A stretch of DNA of 33,445 nucleotides from a virus. The DNA lies in the IMG/VR virus record IMGVR_UViG_3300002514_000118, positions 614 through 34,058 of that record; one strand, written 5' to 3'. The position numbers were made by a program, and so were the translations under genes. Positions 12,203 to 18,468 of the stretch are shown here, one piece after another; position 1 is the first letter of the stretch, and each line of letters opens with the position of its first letter. The notes under the pieces are model-generated. The model was not told where the DNA came from and made no database searches. It saw nothing but the letters and a program-made list of their open reading frames with translations.

Positions 12203-12505
12203 CTAATTATGCCCATCAACTAAAAATAAATTTAGTGGTTGATTTTCAATTGTTATCTTTTGACTATCTACTTCGATTTTGGATGGTCTCCATCCTTTTT
12301 TCCAGTCAGCTCTTCTTGGCTGCGCGAACTTCATTCCACATTCAGAACAGCACCCAAAGTCTTGATAAAATTCTGGATCTTCTAGTTTATTCATAATAAA
12401 ATCACATATTGGGCAAAAAAACGCTGATTGAGAAAAATTTTCGTCTATAGTGACAGAAAATCCTGTATCATCACTATCCGTGATAGACTTTTGCGTCTTT
12501 TCCAT
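12203..12505 (-). CDS. Small zinc-ribbon protein
   Basis: A 100-residue protein with one four-cysteine zinc-binding pattern: CPIC at 31-34 and CSEC at 53-56, separated by an acidic/aromatic loop. A basic stretch (PRRADWKKGWRPSK, 63-76) follows. Such small ribbons bind nucleic acid or protein partners, but the specific function is unknown. The first 32 bases overlap the end of the Mre11-Rad50 gene, and a GGAG site within that gene serves it, so expression is tied to it. The 3' end lies 18 bases before the next start codon. Confidence 0.72.
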   Translation of the reverse strand: MEKTQKSITDSDDTGFSVTIDENFSQSAFFCPICDFIMNKLEDPEFYQDFGCCSECGMKFAQPRRADWKKGWRPSKIEVDSQKITIENQPLNLFLVDGHN

Positions 12506-15500
12506 TTTTTGTTATCTCCAGCAAATTGTCAACAGCATCTTTAATTGCATCAACGTGTGATATTATTATTATATTTTTAAACCACTTCTTAAGTGACTCT
12601 AATAATCTACTGCATGCTTCAATATTAGTTTCATCCAATGCACCAAAACCCTCATCTATGATTAACATATTTGTTTTAGTAAGAGATGAAACATTTATAA
12701 GTGCAACTCTAATTGCCAAAGATGACATCATTTTTTCCATTCCAGAAGCTAATTCAATAATTCTTCTTGAGTCTCCGTAGTTTATATAGATATCCATTGA
12801 ATTTGAATCTGAATCTGCTTCAAGCTCGACAGTAAATCCAGCTACGCCTTGCAGAATCTTTGATATTTCAGCATTAATTACCGGAAGCTGTGACATCATT
12901 ATCTGAAGAGGAATCCCTGTTTTGGATACTGCCTGTATAAAAAGATCATACACTCTTAGGTCTTTTTTAATCTTTTTCAGGTCTTTTCTGTCTTTTTTAA
13001 TCTTTTCTATTTGAACTCTTAGCTTTGCAACATTTTCAAACTTTTTTAATCTTTCTTTATCATCTGTTTTTATTTCACTTTCTAGAGATGAGATTTTTTC
13101 CCTTGCGATATATGAATGATTATCTTTGGAATACACTACTCGATCTTTCATATCTTGTAATGTCTCTATTTCTTCATGAATAGATTCTGCAATATACTTT
13201 TCTTCATTCAAAATATCATTTAGTGATATTTGTAAATTAGAGATTTCAAGAGATAGATCTGTCTGCTTTTTAGCAAAAGCATCGTGTTTTAAAATTTTCT
13301 CCTCTATCTCTTCTGCGATGACTACAGATAGAGACTTCTTTATCTCACTAAGTGACTGTAGTGATTTTTTTACGATTTTATTTTGATCATTTATAGTCTT
13401 TTTATCTTGATGAGAATCTTTTATAAATTTACAAGAAAGAAAACTAGTCCCACACGGGACTTCTGATAGTTTTTTAACTGACTTCTTTTGTCTTTTTAAT
13501 TCACTCTTGCTCTTTTCATATGCATAGTTTAATTCCAGTACAGATTTTTCAAGATCTTTTTGAATATCTAGCTTGAACTTTAAATTTTCTATTGAAAAAT
13601 CAGACTTGACAAGATCTATTTTTTCTTTTTTCTCTCTTGCTGTGTCTATTTTTTTTAAAATATTTCTTTTTGACTTTTCGACATTTTTAATCTTCTCGTC
13701 TAAGTCGACAACTATTTGTTTCTGATTTTCATAATCTGTACTTGTTATAATATCTGGGTTACTAGAGGTTGCTAGCTCTATATTGAGATCTTTTAAAAAA
13801 TTTCTTTTTTTAGAAATATCTTTTTCTATTTTTTCTATTTTCTTTTCCAGATCAAGTATATCAAACTTCCTATTGTCTATCTCTTCGTCGTAGTCTATGC
13901 TTGGGTATATCTTGGCACGAGATCTTATCTCTGATGATTCAGACTTTGCTATGTCATGCATTTTTTCAAAGACAACGAGATCTAAAAACTTAGTTAAAAT
14001 AGCTTTTCTTGCAGTTGCTTTCTCACGAATAAATGTATTCATTTCTCCCTGTGATGCCAAAGATGTCATTAGAAAATCTTCAGGCGTCCCTATCATTTTT
14101 CTTAATATTTTCTCTGTTTCCCTTCTTTGCTCTTCTGTTATATTCTCATAATATCCGTCAACTATTGATGCTTTTTTCAAATGCAAAGAAGTTGATGCAT
14201 AGACCTCACCTTTTCTAGTCTGGTGAGAGATTGTTTCTCTTTCTATCCGCATAGGGTCTCCATTGAGTGTGATGTCTATAGTTGCACTACAATTATTTTT
14301 CCTGCTATTCATTATATGAAGATTTTTTATAGATCCCCTGTCAGTAGTGTTGAATAACCCGTACATTAAAGCACCGATAATAGATGATTTACCTTTTCTA
14401 TTTTTTCCAAAAATACCAGTTATACCAGTAAGATTTTTAAAATTAACAAAATTACCGCTCCCGTACGCAAATAAGTTATCAAAGTTAATCGAATTAATTT
14501 CCCATCTTGTATTTCTCAGTGTATCTTTTTCGTCAGTCACTTGCGAAATGTATTTGTCAATTAATTGTTCTAAATTGTCAAACTCTTCATCAGAAATCTC
14601 AGAGTCTGAATAAAACTCTTTTACAAGATTCTTGTGTGTTGCTGGGTCTCTAAGATTGTCTTTACTCAGCGACCCGGCTGACGTTGTTATTTTTGAAACA
14701 TCAAAAGATGAATCAGATTTAAATACAACCTCTGTTGCATCTTTTTCTCTTTTTAAAGCGTGATACAGTTGAGTGCTTTCTGCCTGAGATATCTGGTTTT
14801 TAGATCTTATTCTAAATCTAGCTCTGTCTGGATAGCTAAAAGACTCGTCTACAGTAGACTCTACGTCTCCTTTCCAATCAATTGTAACAAAAGGCTTTGT
14901 ATGAAGAATCTGATAGAACTTGCTGGTAAAATTATTTCTATCTTTAATATCCCAAAATAAAAATCCTTTGTCTATATTTTCTCCGTAGTTTTGTTGAATT
15001 GTAGACCCTGGGTAGGCCATGGTTCGATCTTCATTTAAAAATTGAGTCTTGTGAATATCTCCAAGCAAAGCGAAATCAAATTGATCAAAAAAGTCATCTG
15101 TAACCTCTCCTTCGAGGCTAAAGTTGATATCTGTCTTTGATCCCCACACCGCACCGTGAAATAATGCTATGTTTACCTTATCTTCTTCTGGCTTTACGTT
15201 TTTCCAGCCGTCTTCATCAAAGCATGAGAACACACACCAGTTAAAATCTTCGTACCCTTTAATAGGATAAACACCCGAATCCTTATAGAGGTGTATGTTA
15301 GGATTGTTTAAAGCTGACAAGATAGGAGAGATGGCATCCTGTCTGTCATTGTTAAGCACCAGGCCGTCATGGTTGCCAAGAATTACGTGGGTGGGTGCAA
15401 TGTCAGCTAGTGAGCTAAACCACCAACAGAGACAATCTATGAGCTCTGGGGATATACCCTGCGTCTTACTGTGGACTATATCTCCGCCAATATAGATTAT

Positions 15501-15611
15501 ATCAGGCTCAAGCTCTCTAGCCTGGTCAAAAAATTGAGAAAAAGACTCTCTATATTCATCATGTCTAGATAAACCCCTCCAGTGAATATCAGCTATATGA
15601 ATAATTTTCAT
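12474..15611 (-). CDS. Fused Mre11-like nuclease and Rad50-like ATPase (gp47-gp46 in one chain)
   Basis: A 1045-residue protein that processes DNA ends for recombination-dependent replication. The N-terminal calcineurin-like phosphoesterase has ADIHW (Asp8, His10), IGGD (Asp44), GNHD (80-82), FHG (His152) and LGDIH (Asp185, His187), the complete metal set of Mre11/SbcD/gp47. Residues 370-1045 are a Rad50/SbcC/gp46 ATPase with Walker A GKNRKGKSS (402-410), a Q-loop ASQGEMN (519-525), and long coiled coils (about 580-715 and 740-890). A cysteine pair at the coil tip (C720, C727) precedes the ABC signature ELASGMEKM (953-961), Walker B MLIIDEGFGALD (982-993) and switch His1019. T4 and cellular versions are two separate proteins. 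Here one uninterrupted frame joins them through a capping-like region of about 130 residues (240-370). The start overlaps the methyltransferase stop as ATGA. Confidence 0.95.
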   Translation of the reverse strand: MKIIHIADIHWRGLSRHDEYRESFSQFFDQARELEPDIIYIGGDIVHSKTQGISPELIDCLCWWFSSLADIAPTHVILGNHDGLVLNNDRQDAISPILSALNNPNIHLYKDSGVYPIKGYEDFNWCVFSCFDEDGWKNVKPEEDKVNIALFHGAVWGSKTDINFSLEGEVTDDFFDQFDFALLGDIHKTQFLNEDRTMAYPGSTIQQNYGENIDKGFLFWDIKDRNNFTSKFYQILHTKPFVTIDWKGDVESTVDESFSYPDRARFRIRSKNQISQAESTQLYHALKREKDATEVVFKSDSSFDVSKITTSAGSLSKDNLRDPATHKNLVKEFYSDSEISDEEFDNLEQLIDKYISQVTDEKDTLRNTRWEINSINFDNLFAYGSGNFVNFKNLTGITGIFGKNRKGKSSIIGALMYGLFNTTDRGSIKNLHIMNSRKNNCSATIDITLNGDPMRIERETISHQTRKGEVYASTSLHLKKASIVDGYYENITEEQRRETEKILRKMIGTPEDFLMTSLASQGEMNTFIREKATARKAILTKFLDLVVFEKMHDIAKSESSEIRSRAKIYPSIDYDEEIDNRKFDILDLEKKIEKIEKDISKKRNFLKDLNIELATSSNPDIITSTDYENQKQIVVDLDEKIKNVEKSKRNILKKIDTAREKKEKIDLVKSDFSIENLKFKLDIQKDLEKSVLELNYAYEKSKSELKRQKKSVKKLSEVPCGTSFLSCKFIKDSHQDKKTINDQNKIVKKSLQSLSEIKKSLSVVIAEEIEEKILKHDAFAKKQTDLSLEISNLQISLNDILNEEKYIAESIHEEIETLQDMKDRVVYSKDNHSYIAREKISSLESEIKTDDKERLKKFENVAKLRVQIEKIKKDRKDLKKIKKDLRVYDLFIQAVSKTGIPLQIMMSQLPVINAEISKILQGVAGFTVELEADSDSNSMDIYINYGDSRRIIELASGMEKMMSSLAIRVALINVSSLTKTNMLIIDEGFGALDETNIEACSRLLESLKKWFKNIIIISHVDAIKDAVDNLLEITKNGKDAKVYHG

Positions 15612-16603
15612 TTCTCTCTCTTTGTGCGTCTTCGCGATGCAATAGAATCTTTATATCGTTTTGGCTTAGTGCCGAAGTCTCTAACAACACTAAAGGTCGA
15701 GGGAAGCTTTCTAGACCATATAGCGTTATTCTTGAGATTTAGTATGATATGGAAGCCTAGCCCTCTAAGTAGATCGCTAACGGGGTTGTTATTATGTGAT
15801 ATATTTTTTGACTTATCACTGTAAGGCTGCTCTATATGAATAAGTTTACAATCTTTAAAAAAATCCCTATGAGAGTCAATTATCTCTCTTTCAGCGCCTT
15901 CGACGTCAATCTTAATAATATCAGGTGATTTTTTATTTCCAATAATTTTTTCAAGTCTAGAAAATCTACACTCTATTTCTTCAAAGCTGATTGGGGGCTT
16001 ATTTACTGTATACAGGCCCGAATTTATTCTGGCTTCTCTATTGGGCAAATATACTTTCCTATTTTCACTATTTGGACCGATCCCGACATTGTGTATCTTT
16101 ATATTGTCAAGATTATTGGCTCTAATATTAGCTAGTGATTTTTCAAAATTATCACGAACTGGTTCAAATCCTATAATTTCACAATCTCTAAACGCATAAG
16201 AAAACACAATAGAGTAAATTCCAATATTTGATCCAATATCTAGTATTAATTCTGGACTACTTTTTGGAAAAATATTATTCCAGAGACTTTTTATTATGGA
16301 TATCTCATCTCCTGCGCGAAAAGCTGTTGAGTTTAATCCACAAGTGCATCCATGCGTATAATAACCGCATCTGCCTTTCATAGCCCAGGATGGTGACATC
16401 AAGGTGGCGGTGCATTTTCCTAAAGTGACGAGAAATCGTCGGTGTCTGGGAACCGCTGGATTTTGTCTTGGAATCGTTAGAGTTTCAAACTCAGTAAAAA
16501 CATTAGCATCAGATGCCGTGTCTGTTTTAGATTTCTTTAAGCTCACGTAATTGTTGCCTGTGGCACACTGGGTGCTTTCTCTACAAAAGCAATCATAGCA
16601 CAA
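15608..16603 (-). CDS. FkbM-family SAM-dependent methyltransferase
   Basis: Likely O-methylates a sugar or similar small acceptor. The class I fold is clear: motif I LILDIGSNIGIYS (119-131), acidic end of beta2 in IIGFEPV (143-149), and the FkbM hallmark IIKIDVEGAEREI (229-241), followed by LIHIEQP. The substrate is unknown; phage enzymes of this family could modify virion or host-surface glycans. The start is doubtful. The first codon in the open frame is TTG at 16603 with only a weak AGG beside it; alternatives are GTG at 16546 and ATG at 16399 or 16381. The N-terminal 90 residues are Cys-rich (C2, C5, C7, C13, C64, C79, C86, C88) and Arg-rich, unlike the usual family. It is the only gene of this block not coupled at its 5' end (71-base gap). 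Its stop is coupled to the Mre11-Rad50 start. Confidence 0.85.
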   Translation of the reverse strand: MCYDCFCRESTQCATGNNYVSLKKSKTDTASDANVFTEFETLTIPRQNPAVPRHRRFLVTLGKCTATLMSPSWAMKGRCGYYTHGCTCGLNSTAFRAGDEISIIKSLWNNIFPKSSPELILDIGSNIGIYSIVFSYAFRDCEIIGFEPVRDNFEKSLANIRANNLDNIKIHNVGIGPNSENRKVYLPNREARINSGLYTVNKPPISFEEIECRFSRLEKIIGNKKSPDIIKIDVEGAEREIIDSHRDFFKDCKLIHIEQPYSDKSKNISHNNNPVSDLLRGLGFHIILNLKNNAIWSRKLPSTFSVVRDFGTKPKRYKDSIASRRRTKREK

Positions 16604-16674: not shown

Positions 16675-17637
16675 TTAAAACAGCGATCCAGTCCTTATTG
16701 AAGAGATCTTTTCCATTATAGAGTCTTCTCTTGTCCACTTACTTGCTTTGTTCTGTAGTGTTTCGAAATCTTTTTTTGACATTTCACCTGCATCGTGAAA
16801 GCTTTCTAAATCCATTATCCTCACGTCACATGAATAAGATGCTAGAAGATCAGCTATCTTAAAAGATTTCTCTCTTGCATCTGAATCTAGACAAAGCAAA
16901 ACAGGTGTGTTGTTAGATGCTATTCTTTTGAATAAGTAAGAGTGCTTACTGAGTATTGATCCCAAGAGACATGTTGAATTTTGACCTGACTTGAGGAGGT
17001 CGAATGGGCCCTCTACAAGAGTCAGCTCTTTTTTCCAGTTTATATTAGATTCATTAAATATTATTGTGCTCTTTTTGACATTAGAATTTATATATTTTCT
17101 ATACACGTCATCATCTATTGCGCGAGCTGTAAAAAAATTTAACTCTCCATCAAGGTCAAATGAGGGTATTATGACTCTTCTTCTAAATTTTCCGCTTGCC
17201 GCTGTTCCTATTTTAAAATACCACAGATCCCTATGTCCGATACCTCTTTTTAAAAGATAATCAAAACAAGATTTTATATCTGGATCTTTTGATTTGAAAT
17301 TAGTTGCAAGAGAAATAAAAGATTCAGGTAAGGATATTTTTTCAGATATCTCATCGACTACTTTATCTACTTTTTCATGTAAAAATCTTACTCTAAATTC
17401 TTTTGAAAGTGCTGCACTAACGTATTTAGATAGAATATAGCCTAAGTCTTTACCCTTAACTCCGCACACCCAGCAATGACAATTCCAAGTATTTAAGTTT
17501 ATAGATAGCTTCTTTTTCTTATTTGATCCACTGCCACACGATGGACAAAAAGTAGCAACGTTAACTTTATCCCTAGCAATCTCTACTTCACCAAAAGCCT
17601 GTCTTACAAACCTTATTTTTGATGAAAATGTTTCCAT
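16675..17637 (-). CDS. DNA primase with CHC2-like zinc finger and Toprim domain
   Basis: Makes RNA primers for lagging-strand synthesis and is likely the counterpart of T4 gp61. It has 320 residues (T4 gp61 has 342). The N-terminal zinc ribbon has CPSC (31-34) and CHCWVC (53-58), as in DnaG-type primases. The catalytic core begins near RRRVIIPSFDLDGELNFF (152-169). The Toprim motifs are VEGPFD (208-213, Glu209) and LCLDSDA (248-254, Asp251 and Asp253). A DAGE motif follows at 282-285. There is no helicase domain, so a separate replicative helicase (gp41-like) must lie elsewhere. It is flanked by the RuvC-like resolvase gene 23 bases upstream and the methyltransferase downstream. Confidence 0.9.
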   Translation of the reverse strand: METFSSKIRFVRQAFGEVEIARDKVNVATFCPSCGSGSNKKKKLSINLNTWNCHCWVCGVKGKDLGYILSKYVSAALSKEFRVRFLHEKVDKVVDEISEKISLPESFISLATNFKSKDPDIKSCFDYLLKRGIGHRDLWYFKIGTAASGKFRRRVIIPSFDLDGELNFFTARAIDDDVYRKYINSNVKKSTIIFNESNINWKKELTLVEGPFDLLKSGQNSTCLLGSILSKHSYLFKRIASNNTPVLLCLDSDAREKSFKIADLLASYSCDVRIMDLESFHDAGEMSKKDFETLQNKASKWTREDSIMEKISSIRTGSLF

Positions 17638-17660: not shown

Positions 17661-18212
17661 TCAAATGTTCATATGAATAGAAGATGCAGCGATGACATAT
17701 GCATCTGCCATATCATAACATCCTATTTCTAATACTTCCTGCCCTTTTCTAGGGCCGCTTTTTAAAATCTTTGTTGGCCACACATGATTAGTTCCGTCAA
17801 GCCTATCTGAGACCCAGTCTAGTATTTGCTGCTTTGTAGATTTTCCACAAACTTTTTCTCTTTTTACTTTTATTCCAACGCTTTTTCTAGCCTGATTAAC
17901 ATTAATGAATACAGGAGAATCATCAAAGATCTTGAAACAAGTATAGGATACTATTCCATTAAATTTTGAAAGAGTAGACAAGGTTCTTGCAGATGAAAAA
18001 CCGGGTCTATAGGATTGAAAATCTTCCTCTATATAGACACGCTCTATGCTGTAGAGATTATTGATCTTTAATATTTTATTTCTTACTATTTCTGCTTTTT
18101 CAAATAAGCTATCACCAGATCTGAGCTTTATAAATCCGATATCAACTAACTTATCATTGTCTAGAACACACCAGCCTGTACAGCTTGTTGAAATATCAAG
18201 TCCCAGTATCAT
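17661..18212 (-). CDS. RuvC-like Holliday junction resolvase
   Basis: A metal-dependent endonuclease of the RNase H fold that resolves branched DNA during recombination and before packaging. Counting from the ATG at 18212, the 183-residue protein opens MILGLDISTSCTGW (first catalytic Asp6). It then has VYIEED (Glu62/63) and CYDMADAYVIA near the C-terminus (Asp167, Asp170), the expected acidic set. The frame is open to another ATG at 18251, but RuvC proteins start directly before the first beta strand and an AGGGA site precedes 18212, so I prefer the shorter form. The 5' end overlaps the zinc-ribbon gene by 17 bases. T4 uses the unrelated endonuclease VII (gp49) for this job. Confidence 0.88.
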   Translation of the reverse strand: MILGLDISTSCTGWCVLDNDKLVDIGFIKLRSGDSLFEKAEIVRNKILKINNLYSIERVYIEEDFQSYRPGFSSARTLSTLSKFNGIVSYTCFKIFDDSPVFINVNQARKSVGIKVKREKVCGKSTKQQILDWVSDRLDGTNHVWPTKILKSGPRKGQEVLEIGCYDMADAYVIAASSIHMNI

Positions 18213-18468
18213 CTGGCCACTTTCCCTTTGGGCACTTTTTTGATTTAGCATATGTCATCATGGGAAATGCACACCCGCACTCTTTACACTTATACTTAAA
18301 GATATTTTTTCCCATAATAGTAAATTCTGCAAAGAGAAGGCTCGGGCAAGTCTTGCAAATATTTGCCCTCTTTTCAGCCATAATTTTCATTTCTTCTGAA
18401 AGTCTTTTCGGCTGGGAGGACTTGATAAAATTTACCCATCCTTCTGTTATATTTTTTAAGCTAGCCAC
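18196..18468 (-). CDS. Small six-cysteine zinc-ribbon protein
   Basis: A 90-residue protein. A helical N-terminus (1-33) leads into C38-x2-C41, then C61-x2-C64-x-C66 and C79 in CPKGKWPDD. This arrangement (ICKTCP ... CKECGC ... CPKGKW) resembles small phage-encoded zinc proteins of unknown function. It starts with GTG, which shares its G with the TAG stop of the preceding 828 aa gene (TAGTG), so translation is coupled although the preceding gene encodes a virion-type protein. It overlaps the resolvase start. Regulatory or replication-accessory roles are possible but not shown. Confidence 0.78.
   Translation of the reverse strand: MASLKNITEGWVNFIKSSQPKRLSEEMKIMAEKRANICKTCPSLLFAEFTIMGKNIFKYKCKECGCAFPMMTYAKSKKCPKGKWPDDTGT

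Follow-up and report, generated by a model that had tools for sequence, protein, structure and literature searches.

One open reading frame for both halves of the Mre11-Rad50 enzyme in a tailed phage

In phage T4, gp47 and gp46 are the products of two genes, and together they provide 3' single strands for recombination-dependent replication and repair. The locus described here, from a marine phage, raises the question of whether a phage can carry the same pair of enzymes, nuclease and ATPase, whole and in one chain, and what such a chain would do. The window (33,445 nucleotides, positions 614 to 34,058 of the IMG/VR virus record IMGVR_UViG_3300002514_000118) contains a minus-strand open reading frame at 12474-15611 that encodes 1045 residues, with an ATG at 15611, a stop codon at 12474-12476 and zero internal stops, and this is the sole copy of the fusion in the 34,058-base record.

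Domain layout of the fused chain

Our domain searches matched Pfam Metallophos to residues 1-188 of the protein (E 9e-14, over the cut-off), AAA_23 to residues 377-655 (barely over the cut-off) and SbcC_Walker_B to residues 952-1005 (under the cut-off), while the PHROGs SbcC family phrog_77 matched residues 272-1038 (E 1e-55). An N-terminal Metallophos/SbcD part and, C-terminal to it, both P-loop halves of an SbcC/Rad50 ATPase thus lie in a single frame, in which a complete Mre11/SbcD runs on into a complete Rad50/SbcC. The uninterrupted, covalent 1:1 fusion proposed in the preliminary description is therefore borne out by the frame, by both profile libraries and by 86 fused homologues. An AlphaFold2 model of the chain, built with 77 aligned homologues, had a mean pLDDT of 85 and a full-chain pTM of 0.54, and the placement of the two halves relative to each other is therefore of low confidence. 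The features of the chain are as follows.

12474..15611, minus strand: Mre11/SbcD-Rad50/SbcC fusion protein, one ORF, 1045 aa (frame, Pfam, PHROGs, full-length fused homologues)
14904..15611, minus strand: Mre11 phosphoesterase (nuclease) domain, residues 1-236 (Pfam Metallophos, invariant residues, AlphaFold2 block with pLDDT 73-97)
14712..14903, minus strand: Mre11 capping domain, residues 237-300, beta-alpha-beta-alpha-beta (AlphaFold2 secondary structure, profile match)
14538..14645, minus strand: helix-loop-helix, equivalent of the Rad50-binding domain, residues 323-358 (AlphaFold2 helices, profile match)
14505..14537, minus strand: linker between the halves, about 11 residues, 359-369 (structure superposition, profile match, AlphaFold2, dN/dS)
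13977..14504, minus strand: Rad50 ATPase lobe I, residues 370-545, with Walker A 402-409 and Q-loop Q521 (superposition on SbcC)
13461..13976, minus strand: ascending coiled-coil arm, residues 546-717 (AlphaFold2 helices)
13422..13460, minus strand: coiled-coil apex, residues 718-730, with the variant putative zinc hook C720-X6-C727 (invariant Cys, AlphaFold2)
12927..13421, minus strand: descending coiled-coil arm, residues 731-895 (AlphaFold2 helices)
12477..12926, minus strand: Rad50 ATPase lobe II, residues 896-1045, with SGME 956-959, Walker B 982-987, D-loop and H1019 (Pfam, invariance, superposition)

The capping domain is modelled with strands at 241-245, 265-270 and 294-299 and helices at 250-257 and 276-290, and the two helices of the helix-loop-helix span residues 323-333 and 341-358. 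Mre11 of T. maritima (3qg5_C, from an MR complex) was profile-matched over residues 202-376 of 379, its residue 376 falling at residue 359 of the fusion, and residues 210-399 of E. coli SbcD (6s6v_A) correspond by sequence profile to fusion residues 172-362, while in structure superposition the first residue of E. coli SbcC, the stand-alone Rad50, lands on residue 370 of the model (7yzo_D, Z 27.9; Z 27-28 to SbcC). Since the profiles end at 359 and 362 and the first residue of Rad50 falls at 370, the model presents a whole SbcD joined end to end with a whole SbcC through about 8-11 residues. For comparison, the T. maritima structure led Yoshida et al. to a calculated gap of about 28 Angstrom, or 9-12 residues, to be bridged (PMC3175470). 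The structural rows from VIA-align are confined to the Rad50 half, and the evidence for the Mre11 half is therefore drawn from sequence profiles and from predicted secondary structure. The best fold matches in BFVD, in a ranking that favours full-length fusions, were fused repair nucleases of giant viruses (Tupanvirus, 1379 aa; Harvfovirus; Yasminevirus).

The preliminary description had also supposed that a covalent link would impose a special geometry, with the C-terminal part of Mre11 obliged to reach the Rad50 coiled coil from residues 240-370. This does not hold: residues 237-358 are the usual capping domain and helix-loop-helix, followed by the short linker, and no problem of reach arises because residues 240-370 are the normal Rad50-binding part of Mre11. 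The motif positions first given were upheld for both halves (D8xH10, D44, N80H81, H152 and D185xH187 in the nuclease; Walker A 402-409, Q521, the SGME signature 956-959, Walker B 982-987, the D-loop 992-993 and H1019 in the ATPase), and nearly all of these residues are invariant in the 77 aligned homologues. The ATPase motifs are intact, and the ABC head is split by a long coiled coil; it is on this head and coiled coil, not on a hook feature, that the assignment to Rad50 is based. A self-contained end-processing machine is plausible, but the word 'minimal', used earlier for this protein, does not suit it, as both halves are full length and the coiled-coil arms are about 170 residues each. E. 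coli SbcCD resembles the fusion in its SbcD by sequence profile (6s6v, 7yzo) and in its SbcC by both sequence and structure (7yzo, 7yzp), but is encoded by separate genes overlapping by 4 nt and has a much longer coiled coil and a CPLC hook.

We consider it likely that the protein is a single-chain MR enzyme which acts as a homodimer and both resects and tethers DNA ends for the recombination-dependent replication of the phage. We infer that two chains would contact each other at the nuclease domains, at the ATPase heads and, by way of the hook, at the coiled-coil tips, giving the usual M2R2 complex in the form of a homodimer, in which the binding and hydrolysis of ATP would open and close the heads and let a DNA end reach the nuclease. 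The non-canonical spacing of the hook, Asp185 (see below) and the low pTM count against this reading.

Metal ligands and coiled-coil apex

The five phosphoesterase motifs supply seven metal ligands, canonically D, H, D, N, H, H and H; six of them are canonical here (D8, H10, D44, N80, H152 and H187), and the seventh is Asp185 in place of His, the equivalent of the His206 ligand of P. furiosus, so that motif V reads GDIH and not GHxH; the view that every metal ligand is retained stands for the six and fails for motif V. Among the 86 window-type fusions, motif V is GDIH in 81 and ADIH in 5, and GDIH was also found in the fused proteins of pT24, PTm1, MA9V-1 and LR756501, whereas every separate SbcD examined (T4, A511, G1, SIOphi, P-TIM68, E. 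coli and two bacterial MAG contigs) has GHxH. Of the fusions examined, all but one have Asp in place of the second-metal His of Mre11. GDIH was rejected as a strict marker of fusion, the fused protein of Sphingomonas phage PAU having GHIH.

Because Asp185 replaces a canonical metal-binding His, the nuclease activity of the protein is uncertain, and the change at metal site 2 could mean that the exonuclease has been lost or altered and that the protein works chiefly as an endonuclease or as a clamp that tethers ends. The occurrence of GDIH or ADIH in all window-type fusions and of GDIH in most other fused phage proteins, set against GHxH in the separate SbcDs, speaks for such a shift, as does the identical Asp in R555 of Mimivirus (PMC3175470). 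However, Asp can ligate Mn or Mg, the remaining metal ligands are all invariant and the PAU fusion retains GHIH, and we regard the loss or alteration of exonuclease activity as unlikely.

At the apex of the coiled coil both Cys residues of C720-X6-C727 are invariant in the 77 sequences, but the spacing departs from the CxxC of a canonical zinc hook and the motif is hook-like in position only. All of the separate SbcCs and the other fused groups compared have CxxC, and C-X6-C is found in the clade of the window protein. Two loci (L015 and L016) carry C-x-C-x6-C around the position of fusion residue 720 (CSCAAHAPNC and CSCFEHLPTC). A tentative suggestion, which we hold to be rather unlikely, is that the fused phage proteins form an old, separate MR lineage, marked by the change of the second-metal His to Asp and, in a marine clade, by a hook rebuilt as C-X6-C, whose metal chemistry and tip-to-tip joining would be unlike those of every characterised MR complex. 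The hook and the metal-ligand change are the only aspects of the protein that are perhaps under-described.

Genome context and proposed role

The fusion gene lies within a replication and recombination cluster, with the following neighbours in the window.

17661..18251, minus strand: RuvC-like Holliday-junction resolvase (PHROGs; homologue in 83/143 loci)
16675..17637, minus strand: DnaG-like primase, the usual conserved gene upstream of the fusion (Pfam, PHROGs; homologue in 111/143 loci)
15608..16603, minus strand: FkbM-type methyltransferase between the primase and the fusion gene (Pfam; its end overlaps the fusion start codon by 4 nt)
12203..12505, minus strand: small Cys-rich ORF with an overlap to the 3' end of the fusion gene, conserved as its downstream neighbour; p128, terminase and portal come next (locus comparison)

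The usual order in related loci is RuvC, primase, fusion, small Cys-rich ORF, p128, terminase and portal; many of the 143 loci are truncated, and a terminase was found in 115 of them. No homologue of the FkbM-type methyltransferase was found near the fusion in related loci, the gene being confined to the window, and the site between primase and fusion looks like a variable cargo slot. In some relatives (L008:1715-5990, L022:1851-6001) this slot is taken up by about 4.6 kb encoding a PAP2-Fic protein, a MoxR-like AAA ATPase (AAA_5) and a DUF2201 metallopeptidase/VWA protein. Further along, the portal gene of L005 (11437-15135; also those of L004 and L006) contains several intein-like insertions, with two stretches matching Pfam Intein_splicing, two matching HNH_3 and the start of a third seen by eye at the locus end; the portal gene of the window has no such insertions.

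Nearly all of 22 related IMG/VR contigs (44-267 kb) had one SbcC match and one SbcD match, both of them being the fusion, and the exceptions were a weak match in a 233-codon frame (G013) and a lone phosphoesterase of 256 aa (G016); the fusion is the only MR gene found on contigs of up to 267 kb. In the 735-kb phage LR756501.1 a separate SbcC-like gene (670999-672753) accompanies the fused one, which lies at about 278-282 kb. A RecA-family gene (RecA, PF00154) was present in 13 of 17 related phage records. In two contigs assigned to Halobacteriovorax and Methylococcaceae MAGs (L118, L119) a phage terminase and portal adjoin the fusion gene, so that in all likelihood these are phage sequences placed in a bacterial bin.

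From knowledge of the pathway, the enzyme would resect and tether the ends of the phage DNA and so supply the RecA-like recombinase of the phage with 3' single strands; the resulting role would be in recombination-dependent replication and repair, as for T4 gp46/gp47. The sole-copy status of the gene and the RecA-family genes in most of the related records support this role. T4 gp47/gp46 and the SbcD/SbcC pairs of Herelleviridae (A511, G1, SIOphi) are the same enzymes, with SbcD upstream of SbcC in replication clusters that include helicase, primase or clamp genes; they differ in being two genes, often with a small gene between them, and in having a GHxH motif V, a CPxC hook and a shorter SbcC of 560-639 aa. 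A note in the T4 gp46/47 record, that these proteins are also required for the degradation of host DNA, would fit a protein whose main task was to attack host DNA or to counter defences, degrading the host chromosome or defence-generated intermediates, rather than to serve phage replication and repair. The two roles are compatible, but the primase and RuvC cluster and the co-encoded RecA-family recombinase point to replication and recombination, making a mainly destructive role improbable.

Integrity, ancestry and known relatives of the fusion

A second, independent contig (L002, 15.7 kb) encodes the same protein at 100% identity. Homologue scans gave 86 distinct full-length fusions of 1038-1052 aa, nearly all from IMG/VR and from many metagenomes, and the second scan gave at least 449 relatives. 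Related phages with the two halves as separate genes, which would have spoken against the fusion, were absent among loci of at least 43% identity. Where dS could be computed, dN/dS was 0.01-0.15 over the capping and helix-loop-helix region and 0.00-0.12 over the linker (residues 355-372), indicating that the family is under purifying selection, linker included.

The linker and the loop at about 301-322 are among the less confident parts of the model, where a protease might cut the chain into an ordinary SbcD and SbcC; no protease site is known, no hints of processing were found at the locus and the linker is conserved in length and under purifying selection, which makes this very improbable. 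That the fusion arose by assembly or sequencing error, through a missed stop or a frameshift joining adjacent genes, has a practically negligible chance: a change of one base can suffice, as in Listeria phage LMTA-57, which is 1 base shorter here and annotated with one protein where its relatives have two, but against it stand a constrained linker, capping and helix-loop-helix regions that align family-wide, and 86 distinct fused sequences whose sources are many metagenomes together with several isolate phages. The 100%-identical second contig, the fused homologues and the selection on the linker show that the fusion is real.

In LMTA-57 itself (KJ591605.1:59521-62550) the single annotated D-C recombination exonuclease may be a recent fusion in one genome or a sequencing error. 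Split versions were sought within the clade of the window protein and no separate SbcD and SbcC genes were found; two interrupted cases are not such splits, because their break lies in a loop of the nuclease domain and not at the junction. In the 484-kb phage LR756508 (L034:4665-5579), an ORF for a 305-aa zinc-ribbon TnsA-like endonuclease interrupts the nuclease domain right after motif V (GDIHKRQ), which suggests a mobile intron or similar element, although Rfam gave no intron in L034 at gathering scores; Rfam matched nothing in L034 or in the window, and no tRNA was found in the window. In L151 (3304-6544) a relative of the window protein occupies two overlapping frames, with a similar insertion in the same loop after motif V.

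In the separate phage and E. coli genes SbcD lies directly upstream of SbcC or one to two small genes apart, so a fusion needs only the loss of the intervening stop and spacer. Fused halves all fell on one side of a branch in a tree of the nuclease half (21 rows; support 100/99) and likewise in a tree of the ATPase half (21 rows), where support was weak (77/67). With the separate pairs thinly sampled, the trees fit one old fusion in phages; fusions are scattered among non-fused sequences once cellular genes are included (PMC3175470).

The preliminary description had presented the single chain as a novelty set against separate polypeptides. Yoshida, Claverie and Ogata reported in 2011 fusions of Mre11 and Rad50 in Mimivirus, Bacillus phage 0305phi8-36, plasmids, bacteria and eukaryotes (PMC3175470), and we also found them in isolate phages, namely Microcystis phage Mel-JY01 and phages of Tenacibaculum, Chryseobacterium and Sphingomonas, so that the window fusion is a well-supported further case of a known type and not a new kind. 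Mimivirus R555 likewise has an N-terminal Mre11 and a C-terminal Rad50, with the capping and helix-loop-helix regions kept, a short linker and Asp at the His206 position (PMC3175470), but is 1351 aa long against 1045 aa, the window protein having a shorter coiled coil and a C-X6-C hook and belonging to a tailed phage. Mel-JY01 (WWT39521.1) and the Tenacibaculum, Chryseobacterium and Sphingomonas jumbo phages share the domain order in a single ORF, and Mel-JY01 also has a primase immediately upstream of the fusion; identity to the window protein is 29% for Mel-JY01 and about 22% for pT24, both groups have conventional CxxC hooks and the proteins of the jumbo phages have a length of about 1300 aa.

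With its fixed stoichiometry, a single-chain MR enzyme would be convenient for structural studies of the motions of Mre11 and Rad50 relative to each other, and with the C-X6-C hook nature provides a test of the spacing that a zinc hook tolerates. The 2011 study found R555-like fusion reads to be abundant in aquatic viral fractions, on short scaffolds only that were argued to be possibly of phage origin, and predicted that aquatic viruses, perhaps phages, would be rich in such fusions (PMC3175470). That prediction is borne out by full-length fused genes which stand on phage contigs beside terminase and portal and are the sole MR genes found there.
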